NCBI RefSeq assembly: GCF_016919245.1
Contig: NZ_JAFEJA010000001.1
Span: 1,984,001-2,048,000 of the forward strand
From: Streptomyces zhihengii
Lineage (GTDB): Bacteria; Actinomycetota; Actinomycetes; Streptomycetales; Streptomycetaceae
DNA length: 64,000 nucleotides
Direction: 5' to 3'
Shown here: positions 11,187 through 31,819 of the stretch, piece after piece
How the letters are laid out: each line of letters opens with the position of its first letter
Numbering within the stretch: position 1 is the stretch's first letter
Position numbers and translations under genes: made by a program
Notes under the pieces: generated by a model
What the model saw: the letters and a program-made list of their open reading frames with translations, nothing else
Database searches by the model: none
What the model was told of the DNA's origin: nothing

Positions 11187-11219
11187 GGCGGTTCTCTCCT
11201 GAGGGTGTGTGCGGTGCGT

Positions 11220-11257
11220 GCGCCGTCCCGCGCCCGGGGAGGGGCGCGGGACGGCGC
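11220..11257 (-). terminator. hairpin between amylase and pullulanase genes
   Basis: Perfect 16-bp inverted repeat (11220-11235 against 11242-11257) with a 6-nt loop GGGGAG. It follows the amylase stop codon by about 40 bp and ends only about 33 bp before the TTG start of the pullulanase gene, so it can end amylase transcripts or reduce read-through. Confidence 0.8.
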
Positions 11258-11299
11258 GGGGGAGGTGCACCGGGGCGCCCGGGGGGGGCGCCGCCGGTC

Positions 11300-13009
11300 C
11301 TAGTTGCGCCAGGTGTCGTTCAGCGCGATGCGGCTGGTGCCGACGGTGGCGGTGCGGTTGGCGCCGCTCTCCCAGGTGACGTTGCCGGCGGCGTCCTTGC
11401 GGATGTACTTGTACTCGAAGGCCGTGCCGGCGGGCAGGTCCACGTCCAGCTTCCACACGGGGTAGGACGCGGGGTCGAGCTTGCGGGCGCTGCCCGGGTT
11501 CCAGTTGCCGAGTTCGGCACGGTTGCCCGTCACGTAGATGTTCTGGCCCATGACGGTGGTGGCGTTGACCGCGAACGACGCCCCGGAGGTCACCGGGTCG
11601 GGGTCGGGGTCCGTGCCGCCGCCGCTGCACGTCCGGGCGTTCACGTGCAGCGCCACGGCCGTGCCCGCGCCGAGCGTGGCGGTGAACTGGCCGGATCCGT
11701 TCACCGTGACCGCGTTGCCGCTCTGGACGTCGCAGTAGGTGCCGGAGGGCAGGGACGTCTGGAAGGTGCGGGACAGCGACGAGCCCTCGTGGTTGATCGC
11801 CACGTACGCCTTGTCGCCGCGGCCGAAGGCGATCTGGTCGCCCCCGTTGTCCCACCAGTTCGTCACGGCCTGGCCGCGCGCCGTGTTGCGGAAGGCGACC
11901 ATGGACGAGACCTCGCGCCAGGCGTGCTGGCACTTCCAGCCGTCGCTGTAGCAGGCGTTCACCTGGCCGCCGTTCGGCGGGCCGGCGTCGTGGTCGGAGA
12001 ACTCGTAGCCGGAGTGGACGTCCGGGTTGCCGTACGGCCAGGCCAGCATGAAGACGTGCGCGAGCGTGTAGGCCGAGCCGTTCTTGTAGGTCATCGTGTC
12101 GCCGCCGCGCTCGGTGTCGTGGTTGGCGACGAACACGTTGGACTGGCCCGAGGGCATGAAGCCCCAGCCCTCGCCGAAGTTCTTCAGGTGGGCGAGGTTC
12201 TCGTTCTGGAAGACCTGCTTGAGGCTCCGTCCGTAGCGGAACTCCTGGACGTCGCCGCTGCCGAGGTACTCGGAGGGGGAGACCGCCTCGCCGGCGCCGT
12301 AGATGGCTTCGTGCTTCCAGTAGACGTTCGGGTTGGTCAGCCGGGACTTGATGTTCGACAGGTCGGCGGCCGCCATGTGCTTGGCGGCGTCGATGCGGAA
12401 GCCGTCGACGCCCAGCGAGAGCAGGTCGTTGAGGTATCCGGCGATCTTGCCGCGGACGTAGTCCTCACCGGTGTCCAGGTCCGCGAGCCCGACGAGCTCG
12501 CAGTTCTGCACGTTGCCGCGGTCGCCGTAGTTGTTGCCGATCTGCGTGGTGCAGTTGTCGAAGTCGGGCGCCGAATAGATGCCGGGGTAGTTGTACTTGG
12601 TGTACGACGAGCCGCCGGTGCCGGTGCCGCTGCCCGCGGACATGTGGTTGATGACCGAGTCGGCCACCACCTTCACGCCCGCCGCGTGACAGGTGTCGAC
12701 CATGTTCTTGAACTGCGTCCGGTCGCCGAGGCGTCCGGCGATCCGGTAGGACACCGGCTGGTACGAGGTCCACCACTGGGCGCCCTGGATGTGCTCCTGG
12801 GGCGGGGAGACCTGGACGAAGCCGTAACCGGCCGGGCCCAGGCTGTCGGTGCACGCCTTGGCGACCGAGTCGAATTTCCACTCGAACATCACCGCGGTGA
12901 CGTCCTTGTCGCCGGGCGGCGCGGCCTGTGCGACGGTGGTGGGGGCCGTGACGGCGACAGCGGCTCCTGCCACAACGGCGAGTGCCGCGGCCACGGTTCT
13001 TCTGGCCAT
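11300..13009 (-). CDS. secreted alpha-amylase with C-terminal CBM20
   Basis: Secreted GH13 endo-amylase (569 aa) that cuts internal alpha-1,4 bonds of starch. A Sec signal peptide ([20 protein letters not shown]...AQAAPPGD) leads to the Streptomyces-type amylase core starting [19 protein letters not shown]. Catalytic residues sit in GFRIDAAKH (nucleophile Asp), YGAGEAVSP (acid/base Glu) and [10 protein letters not shown] (stabilising Asp). After about residue 465 a linker [17 protein letters not shown] leads to a starch-binding CBM20 ([25 protein letters not shown]...[19 protein letters not shown]). The start ATG at 13007-13009 has AGGAGG upstream. MalR-like sites lie in its promoter region, matching induction by maltodextrins. 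Confidence 0.95.
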
Positions 13010-18164: not shown

Positions 18165-19439
18165 TTACTTCCAGTCCTTGAGGAGCTTGCGGTACTCCTC
18201 GGCGGTGGCCTTGACGCCCTTCTCCGGGGTGGTCTGGCCGGTGAGGACCTTGGTGTACTCGGTCACCAGCGGCGCGAAGAGGCTGCCGGTCTCCGGGATC
18301 CAGGGGCGCTCGACCGCCTTGTCGACGACCGGGCGGAAGAAGCCGACGATCTCGTTGCTCGCGACACCCGGCTGCGAGTAGACGGAGTTGCGGGTCGGGA
18401 GCAGGCTGAGCTCCTGGGCGACCTTGGCCTGGTTGTCGGCGTTGGTCATGTAGTCCACGAACGCGTAGGAGGCGTCGAGGTTCTTGGAACCGGCGTAGAC
18501 GGCGAGGTTGTGACCGCCCTGCGGGGCGCCCTGGCCGGCGGAGCCCGCGGGGACCGGGGCGATGCCCAGGTTGGCCTTGTCGGTGAACTGCGCGCCCGCG
18601 TAGGTGTCGGCGACGGCCCACGGGCCGTTGATCATCATCGCGACCTCGCCTTCCTTGAAGGCGGTCTGCATGTTGTTCCAGCCGTCGGTCGCGTCGGTCC
18701 TGGCGGCGCCCGAGTCGACGAGGTCCTTGACGACCGTCATGGCCTTGGTGCCGGCGGGGCTGTCGATGGTGACCGACTTCGCCTTGGCGTCGACGAGGTC
18801 GCCGCCCTCGCCGTAGAGGAAGGAGAGGAACCAGTAGGCGTCGTCACCGCGGAGGTAGAGGCCGGTCTTGCCGGTCTTGTCCTTGATGGCGGCGGAGACG
18901 GTCTTCAGCTCGTCGATGGTCTTGGGGACCTCGACACCGGCGTCCTTGAAGATCTTCTTGTTGTAGAAGATGCCCATGGAGTCGATGACCTGCGGCACGG
19001 CGTAGGTCTTGCCGTCGTACTTGGTGGAGGCGGCGGCCTGCTTGAGGAAGTCGTCCTCCTCCTTCAGGGCGGCGGTGCCCTCCAGCGGCGCGAGGTAGCC
19101 GAGGTCGGCGAACTCGGGGGTCCAGGCGACCTCGGAGCGGATGACGTCGGGGGCGCCCGAGCCGGACTGCGCGGCGTTCTTGAACTTGTTCTGCGCCTCG
19201 CCGAAGGGGACGTTGACGTACTTCACCTTCACCTTGGGGTGCAGCTTGGTGAAGTCCTCGGCGATCTTCTTGAAGACCTTGTCCTCGCTGCCGACCGTCG
19301 AGGTGTCCCACCAGGTGACGGTGCCGCTGAGCTCGCCCGAGCTCTTGCTGCCGCTGTCGCCGCCGTCGTCCCCACCGCACGCCGTCGCCGACACGGCCAG
19401 TGCCGCGACCAGAGCGGTGGCCGCTATGCCACGCCGCAT
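18165..19439 (-). CDS. malE: maltodextrin-binding lipoprotein MalE
   Basis: Extracellular solute-binding lipoprotein (424 aa). The signal peptide MRRGIAATALVAALAVSATACGG ends in a lipobox with the lipidated Cys at about residue 21. The mature part has SGTVTWWDTSTVGSEDKVF, APDVIRSEVAWTPEFADLGYL and MMINGPWAVADTYAGA, all typical of MalE/CUT1 binding proteins. The ATG at 19437-19439 has GAAGGAG ahead of it; the longer open frame upstream lies in the operator region. It heads malEFG and is divergent from malR with several MalR-like sites between. Confidence 0.95.
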   Translation of the reverse strand: MRRGIAATALVAALAVSATACGGDDGGDSGSKSSGELSGTVTWWDTSTVGSEDKVFKKIAEDFTKLHPKVKVKYVNVPFGEAQNKFKNAAQSGSGAPDVIRSEVAWTPEFADLGYLAPLEGTAALKEEDDFLKQAAASTKYDGKTYAVPQVIDSMGIFYNKKIFKDAGVEVPKTIDELKTVSAAIKDKTGKTGLYLRGDDAYWFLSFLYGEGGDLVDAKAKSVTIDSPAGTKAMTVVKDLVDSGAARTDATDGWNNMQTAFKEGEVAMMINGPWAVADTYAGAQFTDKANLGIAPVPAGSAGQGAPQGGHNLAVYAGSKNLDASYAFVDYMTNADNQAKVAQELSLLPTRNSVYSQPGVASNEIVGFFRPVVDKAVERPWIPETGSLFAPLVTEYTKVLTGQTTPEKGVKATAEEYRKLLKDWK

Positions 19440-19555
19440 GTGAACTCCTTCGATGTGCCCGACAGGGGCGGAGGCGCAGACCTGCCTCCCGCCGTCCGCT
19501 CCCTCGCGGTGCCGGGTTGCCAGGAACGTAACAGGGCTGAAAACCATCGGAAAGA

Positions 19556-19799: not shown

Positions 19800-20834
19800 A
19801 TGACCGCGCGGCTCGCCGACATCGCAGCCCAGGCGGGGGTCAGTGAAGCCACAGTCAGCCGCGTGCTCAACGGCAAGCCCGGCGTGGCCGCGGCCACCCG
19901 CGAATCCGTTCTCGCCGCACTCGACGTGCTCGGCTACGAACGTCCGGTCCGCCTGCGGCAGCGCAGCGCCGGCCTCGTCGGACTGATAACCCCCGAGCTG
20001 GACAACCCGATCTTCCCCGCCCTCGCCCAGGTGATCGGCCAGGCGCTGACCCGCCAGGGATACACGCCCGTGCTCGCCACCCAGACCCCGGGCGGCTCCA
20101 CCGAGGACGAACTGACCGAGATGCTGGTGGACCGGGGCGTCTCCGGGATCATCTTCGTCTCCGGACTGCACGCGGACACCACGGCCGACATGCAGCGCTA
20201 CGACCGGCTGCGCGCCCAGGGCGTGCCCTACGTCCTGGTCAACGGCTTCTCCCCCAAGGTGCAGGCCCCCTTCGTGTCGCCCGACGACCGGGCCGCGATG
20301 CACCTGGCGGTGACCCACCTCGCCGCGCTCGGCCACACCCGCATCGGCCTGGCCCTCGGGCCCCGCCGCTTCGTGCCGGTGCTGCGCAAGATCGAGGGCT
20401 TCCAGCACGCCATGGCCGAACGGCTCGGCGTCGCGCCCGAGGAGTCCGAGGAGCTGATCCAGCACTCGCTCTACACCCTGGAGGGCGGGCAGGCCGCCGC
20501 CGCCGGCCTGATCGGCCGCGGCTGCACCGCGGTCGTCTGCGCCAGCGACATGATGGCGCTCGGCGCGATCCGCGCCGCCCGGCAGCAGGGGCTGCACGTC
20601 CCGAAGGACATCTCCGTGGTGGGCTTCGACGACTCGCCGCTCATAGCGTTCACCGACCCGCCGCTGACCACCATCCGCCAGCCCGTCCAGGCGATGGGCC
20701 AGGCGTCCGTGCGCGCGCTGCTGGAGGAGATAGGGGGCACCCCCGCCCCGCACAGCGAGTTCGTCTTCATGCCGGAACTCGTCGTCCGCGGCTCGACCGC
20801 CTCCTCCCCCACCCGCCCCGCGGCCGACGCCTGA
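19800..20834 (+). CDS. malR: LacI family maltose repressor MalR
   Basis: LacI/GalR transcriptional repressor of 344 aa, placed divergently from malE as known for MalR in Streptomyces. The helix-turn-helix is ARLADIAAQAGVSEATVSRVLNGK (residues about 3-26), then GYERPVRLRQRSAGLVGLI hinge and a sugar-binding core (GVPYVLVNGFSPKVQAPFVS, KDISVVGFDDSPLIAFTD). The effector would be a maltodextrin or derivative. No clear ribosome site precedes the ATG; a TACAGT at 19786-19791 suggests the mRNA may start at or next to the ATG (leaderless). Its stop codon lies inside the terminator hairpin. Confidence 0.95.
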   Translation: MTARLADIAAQAGVSEATVSRVLNGKPGVAAATRESVLAALDVLGYERPVRLRQRSAGLVGLITPELDNPIFPALAQVIGQALTRQGYTPVLATQTPGGSTEDELTEMLVDRGVSGIIFVSGLHADTTADMQRYDRLRAQGVPYVLVNGFSPKVQAPFVSPDDRAAMHLAVTHLAALGHTRIGLALGPRRFVPVLRKIEGFQHAMAERLGVAPEESEELIQHSLYTLEGGQAAAAGLIGRGCTAVVCASDMMALGAIRAARQQGLHVPKDISVVGFDDSPLIAFTDPPLTTIRQPVQAMGQASVRALLEEIGGTPAPHSEFVFMPELVVRGSTASSPTRPAADA

Positions 20835-20859
20835 CCCGCCGCGAGGCGGGGCGGGTCAG
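20831..20859 (+). terminator. malR terminator hairpin
   Basis: Perfect 10-bp inverted repeat CTGACCCGCC (20831-20840) and its complement (20850-20859), loop of 9 nt. The malR stop TGA is part of the left arm. Confidence 0.65.
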
Positions 20860-20910
20860 GTCCTGGACGCGCCTCCCGGCGGCAGACGCGTCCCCCGGGG
20901 GCCCCGCCCC

Positions 20911-23751
20911 TCACGCCCCCGTCAGCAGCGCCTCCAGGGCGTCCGCCGTGGCCGGGTGGCGGCTGAGAAGGGCCGCGCCCGGCGGGGCGGCGGCCGCCGG
21001 CTCCCAGGAGCCCTCCCACCCCAGCAGTTCCGCCACCGCGTCACCGGTCGCCCGGTGGGCGCGGAGCAGGGCGGCGCCGTGGGGAGCCCGGGCCGCGCCC
21101 GGGGCCGCTGCGGGCGCGGCGTGCTGCTCGCGCCACGGCGGGACCCAGGCGTCCAGCGCCGCGAGCCGCGCGGGGAAGACCCGCCCCGCCTCGCGGATCA
21201 GCAGCGGCGCCAGCTCCGATGCCGTCGAGCGCAGCGTCGTGATCAGGCTGGGCAGCCACGGCAGCAGGACCGGGTCCGGGAGGCGGGCGAACGCGTTGGA
21301 GACCGCCTCGACCACCACGTCCGCCAGGCCCGGCACCGGCTCCAGCGCATGGACGAATCCACTGAGGTAGCGCGGATAGGCGGGCACCACCATGGGGTTG
21401 GCGAGCAGGTCGTCGCAGCGCTCGCGCAGCTCCTGCCGGGACAGGGTGCCGAGCTGCACCTGCGCCGCCCACAGCAGCGCCGTCTTCGCCGGGTCGCGCG
21501 GATGGCACTGGGCCACCGCGAGCTCCAGCTGCGCCCGGTCGCAGCCCAGCGACAGGGCGAGGCCCTCCATGCTGAAGAGGAACCCGAGCATGGCCGCGAC
21601 CTGGCCCACGGTCGCCTCCTCGTCGGCGAACGCCGTCGGGAGCTGTGTGCAGTAGTGGGCGTAGCCGGTCCTGACGAAGGACTCGATCCACGGCGGCAGC
21701 ACGGGCTCGGCGGTGCGGTAGTAGGCGAGGAGCCCGCGCACCCGGCGCAGCACCTCCGGGGCGCCGTCGACGCTGCGCTCGCCGGCGAGCACCTCCAGCG
21801 CCCGGGTGCCCAGTTCCCCGGCGAGGCGGCGGCTGCGCAGATGGAGCGTGGCGTCCTCGACGGCGGCCAGCACCGTCGCCGTGCGGGCCTGCGCGTCCCA
21901 GGCGGCCCGGCGCAGCCGCTGTTCCAGGACCTGCTCGATGCTGACGCCCTCGTAGCCGAGCTCGATGAGCGCCCGCTGGTGGGTGCCGAGCGCCAGGTCC
22001 CAGGACTCCTGGATCGAGGTCGTGCCGAGCCGCCGCTCCCCCATGATCGGGCGGGCCGCGCCGTGCGGCATCAGCCTGCGCAGCATCCACAGCACGTCGG
22101 AACAGGCCGCGAGCTCCGGCCGGGAGGCCAGGTCGAGCAGCGCCCGCTGCACACCGCGCTTCTCCAGCGCCAGCCCGAGCGGCGCGAGCCGGTCGTGCAC
22201 GTCCCGGGCGAGCGGGGGCAGCGCGTCGTAGCCGACCTGCCCGATCCGGTCGCCGCCCATCATGATCTCGACGAGCCGGCGCACGTCACGGCGTCCGGGC
22301 ACCGAGTCCTTCTCGATGCAGGTGATCGCCGCGTCCTGGAAGTCGTACGGCGTGGGCCGGGCCCGGTCGCGCATGCCGGCGAGCAGGATCGACGTCTCGA
22401 AGACGGCGATGGCGTCGGCGGTGGAGGCGAGGTAGCCGTTGCGGCGGGCCGCGCGCACGATGTCGACGGACCAGCCGAGCAGTTCGGCCTCGTCGAGGTG
22501 GTCGGGCACGGGCGGCTGCCGCAGGTATCCGGAGAGGCGGTCCCCGGCGGGCGGCGCCCCGGCCGCCGGGGACGGCGGAGTGGAGGTCTTGCGGGCACGG
22601 GGCTTCGCCGCGCCCGCCTGCCCGGCCAGCCGGAACGGCTCGACCCGGGTGCGCCGGAGGTTCTTGGCCCAGGTGGTGGCGGCGATCGACACCGATCCCG
22701 CGGCCAGCCCGAACTGCGCCTCGATGGCCGCGTGGCTGGACGGGATGAGACCGTGCTGCCAGGTGGTGGCCGACCGCGGGGTGATCTCGAAGGTGTCCGT
22801 GCCCGCGACCCCGAACTCGGCGACCCGGCTGGCCGCGTGGAAGGCGCCGCAGACGTAGAGGCAGTCCGCGGGGTCGGTGCCGGTGGCGGACAGGTGTGCG
22901 CGCATCCGGGTCCACATGTGGCGTTCCCGGTCCTCGTCCACCCGCATCCGGCCCGGGTCGCCCGGGGCGAGACGGCGGAACAGGCTGCCGATGAGCAGCA
23001 TGACCTGACGGTAGGTGTCGTGGTCGCTGTCGCCGAGCGGCAGCTCCACGTACTGGTGCCACCACTCCGACCAGTGCCGCACCCGGCCGTGGCGGAGCAG
23101 GTGTTCCTCCAGCTCGGCGAAGCGCGGCCGGAGGTCGCCCATCTCCACGCCGACGGCCTCGCCGTGCAGTGCGGCCTCCTCCTCGGCGGGCCGGGCGGAC
23201 GCGCTCTCGGGGCCGGCGGCGGGCCCGTCGGGGTCCTCGGCGCGCCGGTCCCACTGGAAGACGTGGTCCGAGGAGCGGTCCACGAGGACCAGTTCGACGC
23301 CCGGGGTGTCCAGGGCGTAGGCGATGGCCTGGTACTCGGCCGACGCCTCGGTGATCGGGGCGACCACCGACAGCGGCGACCACTCGGGCGGGAAGTCGCG
23401 GACCTCGCCGGCGAACGCCTGCACCGCCACCGGCAGCCGGCAGTTGCGCAGCTCGGTGAGGATCGGCGCCATGTCCTCGCACAGCTCCAGGTAGACGACC
23501 CTGGGCCGCTTCTCGCGCAGCCGCCGGGCCATGGCGGTCGCCGAGGCGGGCGAGTGGTGGCAGACCGGGAAGATCTCCAGCGGCTCGCCGAGGGCCCGGT
23601 CGACGTCGTCGACCATGCCGAGGAGGATGCCCTCCAGGGCGCCGGGGCCGTCGGCGAACGCGGCCGCGGCCTCGTGCAGTTGGCCGCGCAGCGCCTCGAA
23701 GGTGTCTTCGGCGGCGGTGGCCGGCGGGGTGCCGGCGGGTGCTCCGCTCAT
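20911..23751 (-). CDS. DUF5682-like large protein of the SWIM/VWA/MoxR operon
   Basis: Soluble protein of 946 aa, last gene of the five-gene operon, coupled to the AAA+ gene by an ATGA overlap. The N-terminal region contains IFPVCHHSPASATAMARRL (HH near residue 65), VVYLELCEDMAPILTEL (near 87) and LYVCGAFHAASR (GAFH near 302). A His/Glu/GxxH layout of this kind recalls the TraB/ChaN/EreA-like hydrolase group, but that link is inference. Roughly residues 390-950 are helical, Leu/Arg-rich and repeat-like. No signal peptide or membrane helix is visible. I recognise the DUF5682 family type, which co-occurs with SWIM, VWA and MoxR genes, but no biochemical function is known to me. Confidence 0.8.
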   Translation of the reverse strand: MSGAPAGTPPATAAEDTFEALRGQLHEAAAAFADGPGALEGILLGMVDDVDRALGEPLEIFPVCHHSPASATAMARRLREKRPRVVYLELCEDMAPILTELRNCRLPVAVQAFAGEVRDFPPEWSPLSVVAPITEASAEYQAIAYALDTPGVELVLVDRSSDHVFQWDRRAEDPDGPAAGPESASARPAEEEAALHGEAVGVEMGDLRPRFAELEEHLLRHGRVRHWSEWWHQYVELPLGDSDHDTYRQVMLLIGSLFRRLAPGDPGRMRVDEDRERHMWTRMRAHLSATGTDPADCLYVCGAFHAASRVAEFGVAGTDTFEITPRSATTWQHGLIPSSHAAIEAQFGLAAGSVSIAATTWAKNLRRTRVEPFRLAGQAGAAKPRARKTSTPPSPAAGAPPAGDRLSGYLRQPPVPDHLDEAELLGWSVDIVRAARRNGYLASTADAIAVFETSILLAGMRDRARPTPYDFQDAAITCIEKDSVPGRRDVRRLVEIMMGGDRIGQVGYDALPPLARDVHDRLAPLGLALEKRGVQRALLDLASRPELAACSDVLWMLRRLMPHGAARPIMGERRLGTTSIQESWDLALGTHQRALIELGYEGVSIEQVLEQRLRRAAWDAQARTATVLAAVEDATLHLRSRRLAGELGTRALEVLAGERSVDGAPEVLRRVRGLLAYYRTAEPVLPPWIESFVRTGYAHYCTQLPTAFADEEATVGQVAAMLGFLFSMEGLALSLGCDRAQLELAVAQCHPRDPAKTALLWAAQVQLGTLSRQELRERCDDLLANPMVVPAYPRYLSGFVHALEPVPGLADVVVEAVSNAFARLPDPVLLPWLPSLITTLRSTASELAPLLIREAGRVFPARLAALDAWVPPWREQHAAPAAAPGAARAPHGAALLRAHRATGDAVAELLGWEGSWEPAAAAPPGAALLSRHPATADALEALLTGA

Positions 23752-24869
23752 GACAGGGTGGCGATCGCGTCGCGGCCGCCCTCCAGGAACTCGGGCCAGG
23801 AGCCGCCCTCGGACTTGCTGCGCGGCTCGACGACACCGTGCAGGTACTTGTTGAGGATGGCCAGGTCCTCCGGTTCGCGGCGGGCCAGGGAGCCGACCAG
23901 CGAGGAGGCCAGCGTCCGTGCGGTGAGGGCCCGTTCGCCGAAGAAGTCGCTGTGCAGGACGGCGTCCTCCAGCACACCGATCTGCTCGGCGGTGGAGAGC
24001 GCGGACTCCAGCTTCTCGTCGTCGCTGCCGGCCGCCGCCGCGGAGGCCCGCAGGTCGGCGAAGCTCTGGAGCAGCACGTCCAGCAGGGTCGGCGGCACGT
24101 CCAGGTCGATGGCGTGCCGGCGGAGCAGCTCCTCGGTGCGGAAGCGGACGATCTCCGCCTCGCTCTTCTTGTTGGTCACCACCGGGATGCGGACGAAGTT
24201 GAAGCGGCGCTTCAGCGCGGAGGAGAGGTCGTTGACACCGCGGTCGCGGCTGTTGGCGGTCGCGATGACGGAGAAGCCGGGCTTGGCGAAGACGATGTTG
24301 TCGCCGCCGTCGCTGTCCAGCTCGGGGACCGAGATGTACTTCTCGGACAGGATGGAGATCAGGGCGTCCTGGACGTCGCTGGTGGAGCGGGTGAGCTCCT
24401 CGAAGCGGCCGATCGTGCCGGTCTCCATCGCGGTCATGATCGGCGAGGGGATCATCGAGGCGCGCGACTGCCCCTTGGCGATGACCATGGAGACGTTCCA
24501 GGAGTACTTGACGTGGTCCTCGGTGGTGCCGGCCGTGCCCTGCACCACCAGGGTGGAGTTGCGGCTGATCGCGGCGGACAGCAGCTCCGCGAGCCAGCTC
24601 TTGCCGGTGCCGGGGTCGCCGATGAGCAGCAGGCCGCGGTCGGAGGCCAGGGTCACGATGGACCGCTCGACGAAGCTCCGGTCGCCGAACCACTTCTGGG
24701 AGATCTCCCGGTCCAGGCCGTCGGAGCGCTCGGACCCGAGGACGAACAGACGGACCATCTTCGGGGAGAGCCGCCAGGAGAAGGGCTTGGGGCCGTCGTC
24801 CACCGACTCCAGCCAGTCCAGCTCCTCGGCGTACTTGATCTCGGCGGGGGCGCGCAGCAGGTCGGACAT
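23748..24869 (-). CDS. MoxR-type AAA+ ATPase
   Basis: AAA+ ATPase of 373 aa in the dynein-like/MoxR branch. The Walker A GDPGTGKS is near residue 88. The Walker B position reads TIGRFEELTRSTSDVQDALISILSE, where MoxR proteins usually have ADEINRAP...ALLEAM, so the acidic pair is EE rather than DE. Sensor 1 is VIATANSRDRGVNDLSSALKRRFN with the arginine-finger-like RRF. MoxR ATPases partner with VWA proteins to remodel targets; here the VWA gene is directly upstream (23 bp gap) and the DUF5682-like gene overlaps downstream (ATGA). Start ATG 24867-24869. Confidence 0.9.
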   Translation of the reverse strand: MSDLLRAPAEIKYAEELDWLESVDDGPKPFSWRLSPKMVRLFVLGSERSDGLDREISQKWFGDRSFVERSIVTLASDRGLLLIGDPGTGKSWLAELLSAAISRNSTLVVQGTAGTTEDHVKYSWNVSMVIAKGQSRASMIPSPIMTAMETGTIGRFEELTRSTSDVQDALISILSEKYISVPELDSDGGDNIVFAKPGFSVIATANSRDRGVNDLSSALKRRFNFVRIPVVTNKKSEAEIVRFRTEELLRRHAIDLDVPPTLLDVLLQSFADLRASAAAAGSDDEKLESALSTAEQIGVLEDAVLHSDFFGERALTARTLASSLVGSLARREPEDLAILNKYLHGVVEPRSKSEGGSWPEFLEGGRDAIATLS

Positions 24870-24892
24870 GTCAGGGGCCTTTCTGGGACGTC

Positions 24893-26362
24893 TCAGGTGA
24901 GGAAGGTCTTGAGCTCGTGGACGAGCCGGTCGATGTGTCCGGAGATCACCGGGGTGCCGAGCGCCTTGAACCGCTCCCGGAACCAGGGGTTGACCTCCTG
25001 CCGTCCGGAGCTGGTCACCGAGCCGACGGGGATGAACTTCACGCCGGAGCGGTGGACCGCCTCGATGCCCTCGTAGAGGGGCTGGGAGCGGCCGAACTCG
25101 TAGAAGTCGGAGATCCACACCATCGCGGTGGAGCGCGGCTCGGCGATCTTCGGGCGGGCCATGGCCATCGCCACCGGACCGTCGTTGCCGCCGCCGAGGT
25201 TGGTGCGCAGCAGCACGTCGAACGGGTCGTGCACCCAGGGGGTGAGGTCGACGGCGCGGGTGTCGAACGCGATCAGGTGCACGTCGACCTTGGGCAGTCC
25301 GGCGAAGATCGAGGCGAGGATGGTGCAGTTGACCATCGAGTCGACCATGGAGCCGGACTGGTCGACCACCACGATCAGCCGCTGGGGTGTCGTGCGGCGC
25401 ACGGTGTGGCGGTAGTAGAGGCGGTCGACGTAGAGCCGCTCCTCCTCCGGGCTCCAGTTGGTGAGGTTCTTCCAGACGGTGCGGTCGAGGTCGAGGTTGC
25501 GGAAGACCCGCTTCGGCGGGATCGAGCGGTCGAGGTCGCCTGCCGTGGCCTTCTCCACCTGGGTGCGCAGCACCTCGGCGACCTCGTCGACGTACCGGCG
25601 GATCAGCGATCTGGCGTTGGCGAGGGCGACACCGGAGAGGTTGTCCTTGTCGCGCAGCAGTTGCTCGATCAGGGACATGCTGGGCGTGAGCTGTGCGGCC
25701 AGCGTGGGATCGGCGAGCACCTCGCGCAGGCGCATCCGGGAGACGAGTCCGGCTTCGATTGCGCCCAGTTCGGGGCCGAGGCCCGTGGCGCCGCCGGCGT
25801 CGGAGCGGCCGCCCCGCAGGCCGCCGGGCGGGCAGCCGAGGGCGCGCTCCAGCCAGCCGGCGTCGGACTGCCAGCGGGCGAGCTGCCCCGCGGTGACCGT
25901 CCCGGAGCCGGTGGCGAAGACGTTGAGCAGCACCTTCGAGGCGAGTGCGGCGCGGCGCACCTCGGCGGCCCGGTCGCGCTGCCCGTCGGCGTCGGGCCCG
26001 GGGGTCATCAGCCCCTCCAGCTCGGCGGCGAGGCCGGGGTGGCGCTGGACGACGGAGTCGACGGACGCGCCCGGGTCGAGCAGCGCGGGCGGCAGGCCGA
26101 TGTCCTCGACGACGGCGAGGCTCGCCGATTCGAGCGCCGGCTGCTCCTCGTGGTCGAAGAGGCGGGCGAGCAGGCGCCAGTAGAGCACCTGCCGGCGGTT
26201 GTCGTGGGCGTCGGGCACCGGGGCGTCCGCAGGAGTGGCGTCCGGCCCGGGGGCGTCCCCGACAGTGGCGTCGGGCACCGGCAGGTCCGCAACAGCGGCG
26301 TCGGACCCGGGGGCGTCCGCACCGGTGGCGGCGGGCGCGGGTGCGGGGGTGGGGTCGCTCAT
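24893..26362 (-). CDS. VWA domain protein, MoxR partner
   Basis: Protein of 489 aa with a C-terminal von Willebrand A domain. The metal site is intact: LIVVVDQSGSMVDSMV (DxSxS near residue 332), FDTRAVDLTPWV and MVWISDFYEFG. The N-terminal 50 residues are a low-complexity repeat of the type DAPGPDATPADAPVPDA, encoded by a run of GGGGCGTC-like repeats at 26220-26330. The middle region (residues 60-310) is helical with no known motif. The ATG (26360-26362) overlaps the preceding gene stop as ATGA. It would act as the adaptor or co-chaperone of the neighbouring MoxR ATPase. Confidence 0.9.
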   Translation of the reverse strand: MSDPTPAPAPAATGADAPGSDAAVADLPVPDATVGDAPGPDATPADAPVPDAHDNRRQVLYWRLLARLFDHEEQPALESASLAVVEDIGLPPALLDPGASVDSVVQRHPGLAAELEGLMTPGPDADGQRDRAAEVRRAALASKVLLNVFATGSGTVTAGQLARWQSDAGWLERALGCPPGGLRGGRSDAGGATGLGPELGAIEAGLVSRMRLREVLADPTLAAQLTPSMSLIEQLLRDKDNLSGVALANARSLIRRYVDEVAEVLRTQVEKATAGDLDRSIPPKRVFRNLDLDRTVWKNLTNWSPEEERLYVDRLYYRHTVRRTTPQRLIVVVDQSGSMVDSMVNCTILASIFAGLPKVDVHLIAFDTRAVDLTPWVHDPFDVLLRTNLGGGNDGPVAMAMARPKIAEPRSTAMVWISDFYEFGRSQPLYEGIEAVHRSGVKFIPVGSVTSSGRQEVNPWFRERFKALGTPVISGHIDRLVHELKTFLT

Positions 26363-27747
26363 GCGCGCAGCAGCCTTCCCGCGCGTTCGCGCAGTACGGA
26401 GACGGCGTCGGTGGCGGCCTTCTCGGCCTTGGCACCGTTTTTGTCGGCGGTGCCCGCGGCCCACGCCCCGGCGTGGACCGCGACCGCCTTGCGGCGCACG
26501 GTGGTCTCCACGGCGAGGGGCTGCACACGGAACGCCCCCGCGTCCCAGCGGAGCAGCCCGATGCAGGCGCCGGAGGCCGCGACGGCCTCGGGGGTGAGCG
26601 GGCCCGCGACCGGGATGCGGTCGGTGTCGACGGCGAGGCGGTGGCCTGCCAGGTCGAACACGAGGGTGTCGCCGTCCCGGTCCGCGGTGTACCCCTCCAG
26701 CAGGACGGGCTCGGCGATGAGGGCCGGATGCCGGTCCAGGGGCGCGGTCGTCTGTCCGGCGGCGCCGGCCAGGGCCACCCGGGCGGTGGCGAAGGGATCG
26801 GCCGCCGCGCCCGGCTTCGCGTGCGCGTCGTCCCAGATCAGGTCGGAGCCCGCGGTGACCGGCATCGCGTCGAGCTCCATCGAGCGGCCCTCGCCGAAGG
26901 CGGCCAGGAGGGACGTGCGGGGGCGGAGCAACTGCCAGAGCCCGGCGCCCACGACGGTGTCGGGCTTGGGCGCCGACACCGAGGCGCGCACCAGGCGGGG
27001 CGCGGTGCCGTCCGCCGGCTCGAACACCGCGTGCACCTGGGCCTGGACGGCGGTCGGGTGCTCCTGGAGGTCGATGCCGAGCGGCAGCAGCCGGCCGGTG
27101 GCTGTGCCGGTGGCCGGGCGCCCGGCCGCGCCCCGGTGGGTGAGCAGCAGCGCACGCGCCCACAGGTCGGCCCAGCGGCGCACCGGGACCCGCTCCAGGC
27201 CCGCGCCCGGGCAGGAGGCGGCGAGTTCGGCGGCGAAGCCGTCGAGGAGCGCCGCGTGCCGGCGCAGCGCGGGGTCGGGGAGCATCGCGGCGACGACGGT
27301 GTCCGCCTGGGCGACGAGGTCGTGGTCGATGCCGTGCCAGCCGGCCCGGGCGAGGTCGCAGAGCCAGGCGCGGGCGGCGGCCCGCAGGTTGGCGCCGTGC
27401 CCGCCGGGCTCCGCGGCGAAGGACTCCTCGGCGCGGGTGCGTCCGGTGGCCTCGTCGGCGCGGGCGAGCAGGGCGTCGTGCGCCGCGCCGAGCAGGGCGG
27501 TGCGGGCGGCGGCGAGCGCGGTGAGGTGGTCCTCGCCGGCCGCTCCGGCCGCGGCCTTCCCGGCGGCCTCCTCGACCCGCGCGGCGAGCGGGGTCCCGGC
27601 GACGGCGCCGGCGAGCGCGGCCAGCCCCTCGGCCTGGGCCGGCTGCGGGCGCAGCAGCCCGTGGACGAGCGCCCGGTCGAAGGCGTCGACGGCGGCGAGG
27701 GCCTCGTCGAGGCCGTCGAGCGGCTCGGTCAGCGGATCGGCGCGCAT
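26359..27747 (-). CDS. unknown protein of the SWIM/VWA/MoxR operon
   Basis: Protein of 462 aa whose family I do not recognise. The first half is helical and Ala/Leu-rich (EALAAVDAFDRALVHGLLRPQ, AARAWLCDLARAGWHGIDHDL). The second half has alternating strands (GRLLPLGIDLQEHPTAVQAQVHAVF, LVFDLAGHRLAVDTDRIPVAG) and ends VRRKAVAVHAGAWAAGTADKN. No signal peptide, membrane helix or known catalytic motif is seen. It sits between the SWIM-like gene (stop and start share one base, TGATG) and the VWA gene (ATGA overlap), so it is certainly translated with them and is probably a core system component. Confidence 0.75.
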   Translation of the reverse strand: MRADPLTEPLDGLDEALAAVDAFDRALVHGLLRPQPAQAEGLAALAGAVAGTPLAARVEEAAGKAAAGAAGEDHLTALAAARTALLGAAHDALLARADEATGRTRAEESFAAEPGGHGANLRAAARAWLCDLARAGWHGIDHDLVAQADTVVAAMLPDPALRRHAALLDGFAAELAASCPGAGLERVPVRRWADLWARALLLTHRGAAGRPATGTATGRLLPLGIDLQEHPTAVQAQVHAVFEPADGTAPRLVRASVSAPKPDTVVGAGLWQLLRPRTSLLAAFGEGRSMELDAMPVTAGSDLIWDDAHAKPGAAADPFATARVALAGAAGQTTAPLDRHPALIAEPVLLEGYTADRDGDTLVFDLAGHRLAVDTDRIPVAGPLTPEAVAASGACIGLLRWDAGAFRVQPLAVETTVRRKAVAVHAGAWAAGTADKNGAKAEKAATDAVSVLRERAGRLLRA

Positions 27748-28250
27748 CAGGCCACCGCCCTCGTCGGCGGGAACCACTGCATCTCGGGCAGCGGCGCGGT
27801 GGAGCCGGGCAGTTCGAGGTAGGCGAGGTGCCGCAGGAACCGGCTGAAGACGGGCGCGGCGGCCGAGGTGTCGCCCTGGGCGGGGCGGGTGGCGGTCATC
27901 GCGGCGACGATGCCGGCGGTGTCCGGGGCCGCGTCCCCGGTGTCGGCCTTCAGATGGCGGGCGACCCGCTCGGCGCCGTACTGGAGCACGGCCTCCCCGA
28001 GCAGGGCGCGGATGTGGTTGCAGAAGGAGCCCCGCGCGCCGCCGCAGGGCCGGTTGTTGTTGGTGCTGCACGCGAAGGCGTACGTACCGGCCGCGACGGA
28101 CGACACGTAGACGCGGCCGATGTCCGACCCGCTGGACACCACTCCCTGCACCCGCCCGTCGGCCAGTTCGACGAACGGCACCTTGGCGAGCTTGCGTGGC
28201 CGCGCGGGCGCCGTCACCCGGACCGTGCTCGACTTCTCCCCATCCGACAA
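27747..28250 (-). CDS. SWIM zinc-finger-like protein
   Basis: Small protein of 167 aa, first gene of the operon. The motif TYAFACSTNNNRPCGGARGSFCNHIRALL resembles a SWIM finger (CxC...CxH) with the final CNH intact but the first CxC pair altered to a single C followed by a second C nine residues on. It opens SDGEKSSTVRVTAPARPRKLAKVPFVELADGRVQG. The start is judged to be the TTG at 28248-28250, with GGAG about 8 nt upstream; a GTG further upstream lacks a ribosome site. SWIM fingers bind nucleic acid or protein, so it may be the recognition part of the system. Function is not established. Confidence 0.7.
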   Translation of the reverse strand: MSDGEKSSTVRVTAPARPRKLAKVPFVELADGRVQGVVSSGSDIGRVYVSSVAAGTYAFACSTNNNRPCGGARGSFCNHIRALLGEAVLQYGAERVARHLKADTGDAAPDTAGIVAAMTATRPAQGDTSAAAPVFSRFLRHLAYLELPGSTAPLPEMQWFPPTRAVA

Positions 28251-28400
28251 CGGACCATCTCCAATGCACACGGGAGGCGTTCGCACCACTGCGGCGGAAC
28301 GAGACGAACCTATCCGTGTGCACTGACAACGGCGCCGGGACCGCCCCGCGGCCCTCCCCGGCACGGCGCCAAGATCCCCCGCGGCCCGGCACGGCACAAC

Positions 28401-28443
28401 GCCGGGGCCCGGCACGCGCCCCACGCGCGTCCCGGGCCCCGGC
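28401..28443 (-). terminator. cebG terminator hairpin
   Basis: Perfect 12-bp inverted repeat GCCGGGGCCCGG (28401-28412) against 28432-28443, 19-nt GC-rich spacer. It follows the cebG stop codon (28455) on the minus strand and separates ceb transcripts from the SWIM-led operon. Confidence 0.75.
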
Positions 28444-28454
28444 TCCCCTGCGTG

Positions 28455-29360
28455 TCAGCTCTTGACCGCTCCGGAGGTGATGCCGCCCACGATGTGCTTG
28501 CCGAGCACCGCGAACACGGCCAGCAGCGGCAGGGTCGCGATCAGCGCGCCGGTGAGCACGATGGCGTGGTTGATGCTGTGGTTGCCCGAGCCCAGGCCGG
28601 CGAGGGCCACCTGGAGGGTGGGTGATCCGTCCGGTGTCAGCGCGATGAACGGCCAGAAGAAGTCGTTCCACGCCTGGACGAAGATGAGCATCCCGAGCAC
28701 CGCCATGGCGGGACGGGCGACCGGGAAGACCACGTGCCAGATGATGCGCAGGCTGTGCGCGCCGTCGACCCGGGCGGCCTCGATCAGTTCGACGGGCAGC
28801 GCCTCCAGCAGGTACTGCCGCATGAAGAACACACCGAACGCGGCGACCAGGCTGGGGAGGATGACCGACTGGAGCTGGTTGACCCAGCCGAACTCGGTGA
28901 TGAGCTGGTACAGCGGGATCACACTGAGCTGCGGCGGGACGGTCATGGTCGCGACCACGATCGTCAGCAGCACGTTGCGGCCCTTGAACTCCAGCTTGGC
29001 GAAGGCGAATCCGGCGAGGGTGGCGAACAGCACGGTGCTGCACGCCACGGCTCCGGCGACGATCGTCGTGTTGATCAGCGCCTCGCCCATGTCGACCTGG
29101 TTCCAGGCGATGGAGAGGTTGTTGAACAGCTCCTTGCCCGGCAGCAGCGGGCTCGGCGCCTGCACGACGCGCTCGCCGGTGTGCGAGGCCGCCACCAGGT
29201 TCCAGTACAGCGGGAAGAGCGAGATCAGCGCCGCGAAGCCGAGCAGGACGTAGGTGAACGGCCCTGCGTGGTGCTGGCGTCCGGCCTTGGTCCCGAACCG
29301 CTTGCGCGGTGCCGGCGGCCGCCCGTGGGCCGGAGCGGGCCTGTTGAGGGCGTGCGTCAT
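28455..29360 (-). CDS. cebG: cellobiose/cellotriose ABC transporter permease CebG
   Basis: CUT1 permease of 301 aa with six predicted helices. The EAA loop reads ELIEAARVDGAHSLRIIWHVVFPVARP, and GKHIVGGITSGAVKS is the typical C-terminus. The ATG (29358-29360) overlaps the cebF stop as ATGA. Assignment to cellobiose rather than another sugar comes from the neighbouring cebE and cebR genes and the CebR boxes. The ATPase is not encoded here; MsiK is expected to power it. Confidence 0.93.
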   Translation of the reverse strand: MTHALNRPAPAHGRPPAPRKRFGTKAGRQHHAGPFTYVLLGFAALISLFPLYWNLVAASHTGERVVQAPSPLLPGKELFNNLSIAWNQVDMGEALINTTIVAGAVACSTVLFATLAGFAFAKLEFKGRNVLLTIVVATMTVPPQLSVIPLYQLITEFGWVNQLQSVILPSLVAAFGVFFMRQYLLEALPVELIEAARVDGAHSLRIIWHVVFPVARPAMAVLGMLIFVQAWNDFFWPFIALTPDGSPTLQVALAGLGSGNHSINHAIVLTGALIATLPLLAVFAVLGKHIVGGITSGAVKS

Positions 29361-30373
29361 GAGCGGGCCGCTCCGTCCTTCTTCTTCCCCCGGCCGGACC
29401 GGCCGAGCAGGTGCTGAACGAGTCCGATGAGCAGCAGCAGGAGCAGCATCACCCAGGCGATGGCGGACGCCTGGCCGAGGGCGCCGGTGATCCAGCCCTT
29501 CTCGTACATCAGCAGGCTGAGGGTCTGGTACTGGTTGCCGCTGCCGCCGCCGATGCCGAGACTGCCGCCGAAGATCAGCGGCTCGCCGAAGAGCTGGGTG
29601 GCGCCGATCGTGGAGACGACGATGGTGAAGAGGATCGTCGGCTTGATCGAGGGGATCGTGATGCTGATGAACTGGCGGAACCGCGAGGCTCCGTCGAGCG
29701 CGGCGGCCTCGTAGAGGTCGTTCGGCACGGCCTGCATGGCGGCCAGGTAGATCAGCGCGTTGTAGCCGGTCCAGCGCCAGGTGACGATCGTGGAGATCGC
29801 GATCTGGGCGGGCCACTTCTCCGTCTCCCAGTTGACCGCGTCGATGCCGACGTAGCCGAGGAGCTGGTTGATCAGGCCGTAGTCGGTGTTGAAGAGCTGC
29901 GCGAAGACGAGCGCGGCGGCCGCGATGGAGGTGGCGTACGGGGCGAGGACGGCGACGCGGTAGAAACCGCGGCCGCGGATGCGGTAGTTGAGCAGGTGGG
30001 CCAGGCCCAGCGCCATCAGGAGCTGCGGCACGGTGGAGATGAGGCCGATGGTGAAGGTGTTGGCCAGCGCGTTCCAGAAGAAGTCGCTGTCCCAGAGCCG
30101 GAGGTAGTTGTCGAAGCCGCGCCACTCGGCCTCACCGCCGAGCTCGACCTTCTGGAGCGACAGCCAGCCGGTGTACACCAGCGGGAAGAGGCCGAAGGCG
30201 GCGAAGACGAGGAAGAACGGGGCGACGTAGACGTACGGCGTCGCCTTGAGGTCGAGCCGGTACAGGCGGCTGCGCCAGCCGTCCGGGTCGCGGTGCTTCT
30301 TCGGTTCCGTGGGGCTGCCCGACAGGACGACGGGGGGCGAGGCGTCCTGGTCGGGCTGGAGGGAGGTGGCCAT
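29357..30373 (-). CDS. cebF: cellobiose/cellotriose ABC transporter permease CebF
   Basis: CUT1 permease of 338 aa. An N-terminal polar tail of about 55 residues precedes YVAPFFLVFAAFGLFPLVYTGWL. The EAA loop is DLYEAAALDGASRFRQFISITIPSIKP. The glycine-rich loop FGGSLGIGGGSGNQYQT is typical of CebF-like permeases. The ATG at 30371-30373 follows an AAAGGG ribosome site; an ATG at 30416-30418 in the same frame is poorly placed. A strong hairpin separates it from cebE. Confidence 0.93.
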   Translation of the reverse strand: MATSLQPDQDASPPVVLSGSPTEPKKHRDPDGWRSRLYRLDLKATPYVYVAPFFLVFAAFGLFPLVYTGWLSLQKVELGGEAEWRGFDNYLRLWDSDFFWNALANTFTIGLISTVPQLLMALGLAHLLNYRIRGRGFYRVAVLAPYATSIAAAALVFAQLFNTDYGLINQLLGYVGIDAVNWETEKWPAQIAISTIVTWRWTGYNALIYLAAMQAVPNDLYEAAALDGASRFRQFISITIPSIKPTILFTIVVSTIGATQLFGEPLIFGGSLGIGGGSGNQYQTLSLLMYEKGWITGALGQASAIAWVMLLLLLLIGLVQHLLGRSGRGKKKDGAARS

Positions 30374-30423
30374 CAGGCGCCCTTTCCCTGGTGAGTCATG
30401 AAGTTCATGGATGGACACGGAGC

Positions 30424-30458
30424 GCGCCGGCCGCCCGTGCGAGACGGGCGGCCGGCGC
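30424..30458 (-). terminator. intercistronic hairpin cebE-cebF
   Basis: Perfect 15-bp inverted repeat (30424-30438 against 30444-30458) with a 5-nt loop, directly after the cebE stop codon. Such hairpins behind binding-protein genes often stabilise the upstream mRNA or cut read-through so the binding protein outnumbers the permeases. Confidence 0.75.
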
Positions 30459-30466
30459 CGGGAGGA

Positions 30467-31819
30467 CTACTGGTCGATCTTGTCCTCGATCAGCTTCTTG
30501 ACGTTGTTCCACGCCTTGTCGGGCGCGGTGCCGCGGGTCTCGATGTCGAGGATCCCGTTGTCGGTCAGGAACGTCTTGACCTGGCCGTCGTAGCGGCCGA
30601 TGGGCGCCGGGGTGATCTTCTGCGCGGCGGCGGAGTAGATCTTGCCGACGGGAACGCCGGGGTAGTACTCGGGCTGGGCGTTCTGCACGGCCTCGGAGCT
30701 GAGGCCGGCGGTGGTGGAGGGGATGTTGCCGTTGACGGCGAAGACCTTGGCCTGCTGCTCGGGCGCGGTCAGCCAGGCGGCCAGCTTGGCGGCCTCGGCG
30801 GTGTTCTTGCCGGCCTTCGGCACGGCGAGGAAGGAGCCGCCCCAGTTCGCCGGGACGGGCGCCTGCGCGATGTCCCACTTGCCCTTGTTCGCGGGACCGG
30901 CCTGGTCCTTGATGATGCCGGTCATCCAGCTCGGGCAGGCGACGGTGGCGAACTTGGAGTTCTTGAAGGCGGCGTTCCAGGTGCCCTTCTCGTCGAACTG
31001 GCGCAGCTTGCCGGTCAGCCCGCCCTGGGCGGCCTTCACGGCGACGTCCCAGGCCTTGGCGACACCCGGGCTGCCCTCCCAGTGGAGCTTGCCCGACTCG
31101 TCGGAGTACTGGTCGGGCTCACTGGAGATCACGGCGTTGAACAGACCGCTCGCCGAGTCGTGGAAGGCCGTGCCGTCGGGCGCCTTGGCCTTGTACTTCT
31201 CGCCCTGCTCCAGGAACTTGTTCCAGTCGCCGGCCCAGAGCTGCCCGACCTGCTCGCGGTCGGTCGGCAGACCGGCCTTCTCGAAGAGGTCCTTGCGGTA
31301 ACAGATGCCCATCGGGCCGATGTCCGTGCCGAGCGCGATCACCTGGTCGTTGCGGGTGGTCGCCTGCTTGACCTTCCAGTCCAGGAAGGCGGAGGTGTCG
31401 GCGCCGTCCGCCTTGCCCAGGTCGACCCACTTGCTCGCCATGGCGTCACCGGTGGCCTCGGCGATGTAGCCGACCTCGATGGCCTGGATGTCGGCGAGGC
31501 CGCTGCCCTGGGAGAGGCGCAGCTTCAGCGCGTCCCAGTACTTCTGACCGTCGGCGACATTCGTCTCCTCGATCTTGATGTTGGGGTTCAGCTTCTCGTA
31601 CTCGGCGTAGAGCTTGGCGCCCGTCTTGTTGTCGAAGCCGAACGAGCCGAACGTGCCGACGCGCAGAGTGATCTGCTTGTCGCCGCCCGCGGCGTCGTCG
31701 GTACCGCTGTCGCCGTCCGAACCGCAGCCGGTGAGGACGAGTCCGAGGGCGAGCAGGCCCGAGGTGGAGAGGGTGACCGCACGGCTTCTGCGCCTGGCGA
31801 CACCGGTGGATATGCGCAT
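30467..31819 (-). CDS. cebE: cello-oligosaccharide-binding lipoprotein CebE
   Basis: Extracellular solute-binding lipoprotein of 450 aa. The signal peptide ends in LGLVLTGCGSDGD with the lipobox Cys at about residue 32. Mature features include LRVGTFGSFGFDNKTGAKLY, ALGTDIGPMGICYRKDLF and ATVACPSWMTGIIKDQ, as in the CebE family that binds cellobiose/cellotriose. ATG 31817-31819 has AGGAG seven bases ahead. It heads cebEFG, is divergent from cebR, and has a perfect CebR box in its promoter region. Confidence 0.93.
   Translation of the reverse strand: MRISTGVARRRSRAVTLSTSGLLALGLVLTGCGSDGDSGTDDAAGGDKQITLRVGTFGSFGFDNKTGAKLYAEYEKLNPNIKIEETNVADGQKYWDALKLRLSQGSGLADIQAIEVGYIAEATGDAMASKWVDLGKADGADTSAFLDWKVKQATTRNDQVIALGTDIGPMGICYRKDLFEKAGLPTDREQVGQLWAGDWNKFLEQGEKYKAKAPDGTAFHDSASGLFNAVISSEPDQYSDESGKLHWEGSPGVAKAWDVAVKAAQGGLTGKLRQFDEKGTWNAAFKNSKFATVACPSWMTGIIKDQAGPANKGKWDIAQAPVPANWGGSFLAVPKAGKNTAEAAKLAAWLTAPEQQAKVFAVNGNIPSTTAGLSSEAVQNAQPEYYPGVPVGKIYSAAAQKITPAPIGRYDGQVKTFLTDNGILDIETRGTAPDKAWNNVKKLIEDKIDQ

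Follow-up and report, generated by a model that had tools for sequence, protein, structure and literature searches.

A five-gene SWIM, VWA, MoxR and DUF5682 operon of Streptomyces zhihengii as a probable divergent branch of the yehLMPQ cluster

Introduction

Does a tightly packed run of five genes in Streptomyces zhihengii encode a new kind of molecular machine, or a variant of one that other bacteria already carry? The genes, named A to E here, lie end to end on the minus strand at 20911-28217 of a 64,000-nucleotide stretch of contig NZ_JAFEJA010000001.1 (hereafter the window; GC content 73%), to which the coordinates below refer. An initial annotation, made from the sequence alone, regarded them as a candidate uncharacterised system. 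A new kind of system was rejected, since comparison with Escherichia coli showed D, C and E to be homologous to YehL, YehP and YehM. The operon very probably represents a diverged branch of the YehL-YehM-YehP-YehQ cluster that is apparently mobile; its SWIM subunit seems to be divided between A and B, and its DUF5682 protein is large and far from the canonical form. In E. coli K-12, yehL, yehM, yehP and yehQ lie side by side, and RefSeq names MoxR, DUF5682, VWA and SWIM genes for E. coli among the rows listed; YehM belongs to the Pfam family DUF5682 and YehQ has a SWIM finger.

Homology of the ATPase, VWA and DUF5682 proteins

Gene D (23748-24869, minus strand) encodes a MoxR AAA+ ATPase of 373 residues that belongs to the YehL class. 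It matches YehL (40% over 342 residues, E-value 1e-84) and Pfam PF07728 (AAA_5, 1.5e-36), and in a sequence search of the PDB it matches Midasin (3.3e-10). In a tree of MoxR proteins, the window-type sequences form one clade (Shimodaira-Hasegawa-like approximate likelihood ratio test, SH-aLRT, 100) within the YehL-class half, and the YehL-class rows split from 13 other MoxR rows with a support of 85, a split that carries a long-branch warning. YehL is one of the seven subfamilies named for MoxR (PMC3893208).

Gene C (24893-26362, minus strand) encodes a VWA protein of the YehP/CoxE type with 489 residues, which matches YehP (33% over 257 residues, E-value 2e-45) and PF05762 (VWA_CoxE, 2.4e-29); a PDB sequence search with C gave one row, at 0.019. 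Gene E (20911-23751, minus strand) encodes a divergent, YehM-like DUF5682 protein of 946 residues. Its N-terminus matches YehM at 26% (1e-6), and the profile of the window-type E proteins aligned with canonical DUF5682 in hhalign with a probability of 99.7 (E-value 3.9e-27, 508 columns). PF18934 (DUF5682) was found in nine of 24 relatives of E, at best at 6.9e-35, and the DUF5682 label given to E from the sequence was therefore right, both by profile and by Pfam in these relatives. A plasmid relative of E bears the NCBI name "DUF5682 family protein" and stands beside an "AAA family ATPase" and a "VWA domain-containing protein".

Conservation of the unit

Relatives were collected by a contig scan with E, from which 80 of 334 were kept; loci from other genomes and the window itself bring the total to 94. 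The kept relatives are mostly from Streptomyces, with Amycolatopsis, Saccharopolyspora, Streptoalloteichus, Actinophytocola and others also represented. Two handles (L043 and L112) denote the same contig, and L043 was dropped from the motif, flank and E-tree counts and still stands within the 94. Three of the window-type alignments used 24 of the 94 loci.

All 94 loci contain C, D and E, 93 contain B and 88 contain A, and the order A-B-C-D-E never changes. This order is complete in 88 loci, and five of the six exceptions, which lack A, begin at a contig edge. The Walker A motif of D and the VDQSGSM motif of C were each found in 93/93 loci. Genes for MoxR, VWA, SWIM and DUF5682 proteins thus occur together in 88/94 window-type loci and in E. 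coli, and also in 24/24 canonical actinobacterial loci, which had been picked by their MoxR. The lack of co-occurrence that would have counted against the initial annotation was thus not seen, and its view of the genes as a single unit is supported.

The start-stop overlaps that were read from the window are exact: A and B share TGATG, B and C share ATGA, C and D are separated by a gap of 23 base pairs, and D and E share ATGA. The B/C overlap of four is conserved in 93/93 loci and the D/E overlap in 93/94, and A and B overlap by one or four in 71/88 (fused loci cannot show an overlap); these counts lean towards overlaps, because the start nearest the expected offset was chosen.

Canonical clusters in actinobacteria and Escherichia coli

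A sample of the phylum held at least 27 YehL-class MoxR genes in 17 of 198 genomes (E-value ≤ 1.7e-73; next matches 1.3e-15). Genome counts may be low, as the best 10 candidates per genome were scored for YehL-class MoxR and the best four for E. Three of the 27 genes are of the window type and 24 lie in canonical clusters, all of which comprise MoxR, DUF5682 and VWA genes with a SWIM-motif gene within 20 kb. Two types, named here, were distinguished: in type I the SWIM-motif gene lies close to MoxR-DUF5682-VWA, and in type II DUF5682 and VWA occupy one frame. Type II forms a clade in the MoxR tree with a support of 100 and type I one with 69, and the E. coli-like rows do not form a single clade. 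The genome of the window itself carries three systems, one of type I, one of type II and the operon described here. The canonical alignment comprised 16 of 19 non-fused rows, E. coli included, after three rows with doubtful starts had been dropped.

DUF5682 and VWA share one long frame in the type II clusters L032, L034, L036, L047, L049 and L051, which hints at direct contact between the two proteins. In a further locus (L050:5541-9134), the SWIM motif lies in an unusually long frame of 1198 residues that ends at the MoxR gene and possibly holds an extra domain. A homologue of YehI (DUF4132), possibly a fifth member of the canonical cluster, adjoins MoxR in two actinobacterial E. coli-like clusters (L044:18388-19899 and L045:5975-9637); YehI was found in two of 120 loci with any Yeh match (phmmer, 1e-4), neither of the window type.

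In E. coli the cluster is near-core, with at least 80% of it covered in 5162 of 5426 complete genomes, and 5320 of 5322 matching places are chromosomal. No functional account of yehLMPQ was found in the open-licence literature, where a stray mention is possible; within the same literature no paper on DUF5682 was found, and, among the matches listed, neither of the two papers naming two or more of yehL, yehM, yehP and yehQ is about them by title. The operon ties unexplained actinobacterial genes to a near-core E. coli cluster for which no published function was found.

A probable split SWIM subunit

Gene A (27747-28217, minus strand) starts with GTG, at about the same position as its aligned homologues begin, and encodes 156 residues. 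Residues 50-68 (28014-28070, minus strand) form a variant SWIM finger, C-x7-C-x7/8-C-x-H, in which C50, C58, C66 and H68 are invariant among the 24 aligned proteins. The pattern was found in 86/87 loci, and the remaining one (L164) still has the Cys and His residues. This spacing, with its Cys and His kept across relatives, bears out the earlier description of an altered SWIM finger; the SWIM-motif genes of the sister clusters have CxC..CxH where A has Cx7C.

Gene B (26359-27747, minus strand; 462 residues) had been described as a protein of no known family, and it indeed stayed without a match in Pfam, NCBIfam and PADLOC (E-value ≤ 1) and in PHROGs (0.01). Judged from its reading frames in relatives, B is probably the partner half of the SWIM subunit rather than an independent protein. 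A and B lie in one reading frame in 15/87 loci (counted as stop-to-stop frames), and these frames are of YehQ-like size. The pair thus resembles a SWIM subunit cut in two, with the layout of YehQ, and B may correspond to the C-terminal part of YehQ. The AlphaFold2 (AF2) model of B has a predicted local distance difference test score (pLDDT) of 85.4, and residues 208-419 (26491-27126, minus strand) are modelled as a beta-rich region resembling paired oligonucleotide/oligosaccharide-binding (OB) folds. Sequence search of the PDB gave nothing at E-value ≤ 10 for B alone or for the B profile.

The DUF5682 protein

The AF2 model of E (pLDDT 77) has an alpha/beta N-terminal domain followed by helical repeats from about residue 550 to 870. 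The alpha/beta domain comprises residues 55-345 (22717-23589, minus strand), and the predicted helical-repeat region, which is ARM/HEAT-like, comprises residues 549-872 (21136-22107, minus strand). H65, H66, E89, D158, R275, E276, G302 and H305, all within the alpha/beta domain, are invariant in 33 E/DUF5682 proteins (20 window-type and 13 canonical), and the motifs CHHSPxSA, YLELCED and CGAFHA are all present in E of 92/93 loci. In the model, strand 1 leads into H65 and H66, strand 2 contains E89, D158 closes a strand and H305 comes after another. Strand ends are the usual place of the active site in such alpha/beta folds. The clustered His/Glu site that had been proposed for the N-terminus of E is thus consistent with the modelled positions of the invariant His, Glu and Asp residues, which may form a metal-type site, with putative metal binding and catalysis. 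Searched by sequence against the PDB, E alone gave nothing at E-value ≤ 10 and the canonical DUF5682 profile gave two chance-level rows (0.77 and 1.6). Missing clear fold relatives for B or E are no proof of a new fold.

Proteins of the Tiki/TraB/ChaN superfamily have a His after strand 1, a Glu in strand 2, an Arg helix and a GAxH motif. The layout of E is similar, with distances that come close to those in E. coli YbaP (23 vs 26 and 30 vs 24). The comparisons with this superfamily gave no significant match. PF01963 (0.066) and PF04187 (0.12) each appeared in one canonical member; hhalign of E with YbaP gave 0.1, no better than an unrelated control (0.099), in a comparison for which the 14 of 20 PF05139 loci with the expected motif were taken into the profile; and Foldseek of the whole E model gave no significant Tiki/TraB match, a TraB-named viral protein standing at row 25 with an E-value of 0.75. 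PF01963 matched 0/41 relatives and PF04187 0/60 phylum genomes, for which reason no profile of either was built from relatives. A link of E to Tiki/TraB is thus not significant, and the resemblance is one of layout.

Observations against the preferred explanation

Several observations weigh against the identification and the mechanism proposed below. Neither A nor the window E has a Pfam match at E-value ≤ 1; A does not reach the cut-off of SWIM (PF04434), its Cx7C replacing the CxC of that family. BLASTP with YehQ matched neither A nor B, and profile comparison gave no sequence link of B with YehQ or with type I or type II SWIM proteins, although type II SWIM proteins do match the YehQ set in this comparison, at 5.6e-6. 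The miss of B is nevertheless weak evidence, because type I SWIM proteins align with the YehQ set in the finger only (E-value 0.0022, probability 12.8). The OB-fold resemblance of B and the helical-repeat resemblance of E are below the background of the tool. In C, the third residue of the metal ion-dependent adhesion site (MIDAS) is Asn in 38 of 93 loci, the window among them, and Thr in the other 55. Finally, the sixth locus without A is L082 (Streptomyces sp. t39), the nearest relative of the window (90% in E), in which only the 3' end of A is left (L082:6038-6070). A may therefore be dispensable, since L082 keeps full-length B to E, and this locus offers a natural test of the necessity of A.

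Distribution and surroundings

E was found in at least 14 of 197 class genomes and in at least 5 of 16 same-genus genomes among those listed. Five records of a plasmid collection carry it, of which two are Streptomyces plasmids of 0.93-0.97 Mb and three are chromosome-sized (3.1-11.9 Mb). In a tree of E built with FastTree, other genera are interleaved with Streptomyces, with five label changes among 80 named rows, eight of which are non-Streptomyces. The commonest neighbour family occurs around the operon in 9/93 loci (flank genes were called by a picker based on third-position GC content, GC3, rather than by a gene finder), and no metabolic gene is consistently linked to the operon, as the earlier reading of the window had held. 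The operon is apparently a self-contained unit that moves between actinobacteria, with vertical loss as the alternative.

Within the window, a neighbouring gene at 19800-20834 reads as a LacI-type regulator from its translation. Gene sets that resemble sugar-type ATP-binding cassette (ABC) transporters lie on both sides of the operon (18165-19547 and 28455-31819), and these surroundings are not kept in relatives. A GC-rich hairpin lies between the upstream ABC-permease-like gene and A (28390-28455, minus strand). It had been described as a bordering terminator; the hairpin is real (-54.8 kcal/mol, z -5.5), but it is without a run of T and a terminator scan of 20700-28700 was empty. No Rfam family reached its gathering score within the window.

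Alternative explanations

A chance run of unrelated genes is extremely improbable and was ruled out, as the gene order is kept in 88/94 loci despite changing neighbours and the overlapping junctions are conserved. Two functional alternatives deserve more weight, and one of them is an anti-phage or conflict system, in which A and B would sense an invader, MoxR-VWA would set a threshold and E would be a toxic effector, by analogy with the vWA-MoxR ternary systems; the initial annotation had likewise cast E as effector. The patchy distribution, the interleaving of genera on the E tree, the self-contained unit with changing neighbours and the copies on two large Streptomyces plasmids agree with such a role. 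A few restriction-modification-like models were also found near the operon. To compare defence content, 120 nearest genes (of 140 picked and 160 eligible) and 120 distant genes (of 137 picked and 143 eligible) were taken after window rows had been dropped. Type I methyltransferase models (no more than two genes per model) were found in the near set, together with a methyltransferase and a nicking endonuclease of type II; none of these is among the 25 far families listed. Pfam found two N6_Mtase genes and one Schlafen helicase in the near set, and in one plasmid locus the second gene upstream encodes an N-6 DNA methylase. Against this, the near set is not richer overall, with 11 PADLOC families at 1e-15 versus 35 in the far set (25 of them listed, many being overlapping kinase models), a comparison that is rough because families rather than genes were counted and that gives no clear signal of enrichment. 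PADLOC 2.0.0 gave no family for A, B or E at E-value ≤ 1, and its matches to C (TerY, 3e-4) and D (mad8, 3e-6, the best of seven) are weak or partial. No third component of the vWA-MoxR systems was recognised among the Pfam matches at E-value ≤ 1, the cluster in E. coli sits on the chromosome and is near-core, and searches with E found no match among 50,697 phage records and, in IMG/VR, no relative that could be confirmed. In PHROGs, C matches phrog_31592 (8.2e-39), D several ATPase phrogs and E, weakly, phrog_30700 (0.002). YehP- and YehM-like proteins are also encoded at 9365-12770 of MT835988.1, an unannotated 14 kb faecal record named 'Bacteriophage sp.' that is possibly a bacterial contig. 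On balance a conflict role appears improbable.

The second alternative is a maturation chaperone of the NorQD, CoxDE or RavA-ViaA kind, which would insert metal into, or remodel, a client whose gene lies elsewhere, with E as a scaffold and not an enzyme. The nor and cox operons carry a client gene beside the MoxR-VWA pair. No such client gene is conserved beside the present operon, and E has its own invariant His/Glu/Asp set, both of which speak against this account. It draws on the CoxE type of C, on the large helical-repeat region predicted in E and on the precedent of similar MoxR-VWA pairs whose targets are metalloenzymes (PMC9976466, PMC7159879). A chaperone of this kind is rather unlikely.

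Proposed mechanism

The preferred explanation is a yehLMPQ-type MoxR/VWA remodelling machine that acts on its own DUF5682 subunit. Identity and mechanism taken as a whole are reasonably probable; the mechanism by itself is tentative and is drawn by analogy. D would form the MoxR ATPase ring, and C would dock on this ring via its VWA domain and hold the client via its MIDAS site, as in NorQ/NorD, where the VWA domain is modelled on the MoxR ring and MIDAS (DxSxS-T-D) is proposed to bind the client (PMC9976466). C and D share these features, apart from the Asn that replaces the MIDAS Thr in the window and 37 other loci. A and B could act together as an adaptor that recognises the target, possibly nucleic acid or nucleoprotein given the SWIM finger and the OB-like region. 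E may be the operon's own client or working subunit, with an alpha/beta domain that bears a putative metal-type His/Glu/Asp site on a helical-repeat scaffold; it is the simplest client, because none is conserved next to the operon. Once A and B have bound, ATP-driven remodelling by D and C would switch or mature E. We infer these contacts, the client and the catalysis.

A more specific version is speculative and quite unlikely as it stands: activation would be triggered by nucleic acid and powered by ATP, with A and B sensing nucleic acid or nucleoprotein and MoxR-VWA loading or exposing a metal site in E, which would be a Tiki-like hydrolase borne by a helical scaffold. If true, DUF5682 would be a metalloenzyme with its activator encoded beside it, and yehLMPQ would gain a function. 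Concrete starting points for tests are the loci in which A and B naturally share a frame, the presence of paralogous types in a single genome and the residues that never vary in DUF5682.

Comparison with known systems

Conflict systems built on vWA and MoxR have been described (PMC7159879), as have CRISPR-linked ones (PMC10910872). By term counts, SWIM and words that begin with Yeh are absent from the main text of PMC7159879. The ternary conflict systems (VMAP, iSTAND and others) and the present operon have in common a MoxR-VWA core with further subunits. They differ in that no VMAP, iSTAND or variable effector module is present among the Pfam matches of the window at E-value ≤ 1, and the bpMoxR model reached 13.5 bits on the window against a cut-off of 27. 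NorQ/NorD and CoxD/CoxE likewise pair a MoxR ATPase with a VWA partner that has a MIDAS-type motif; here, in contrast, no metalloenzyme client is conserved in linkage and there are extra SWIM, B and DUF5682 subunits.

The canonical type I and type II clusters have the same four domains as the operon, but their MoxR proteins form a distinct clade, their genes are fused or reordered and no B was found in them. The likeness to yehLMPQ lies in homologous MoxR, VWA and DUF5682 proteins and a SWIM-finger protein in one cluster. The order is L-M-P-Q in E. coli and SWIM-B-VWA-MoxR-DUF5682 here, and the order of the type I clusters also differs from that of E. coli, so gene order in this family is not strict. 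Compared with yehLMPQ, the SWIM subunit is apparently in two pieces, the spacing of its finger is altered, DUF5682 is highly diverged and the operon is accessory rather than near-core. The finding thus joins a known, unexplained machine rather than a new one, and the variant itself is new.

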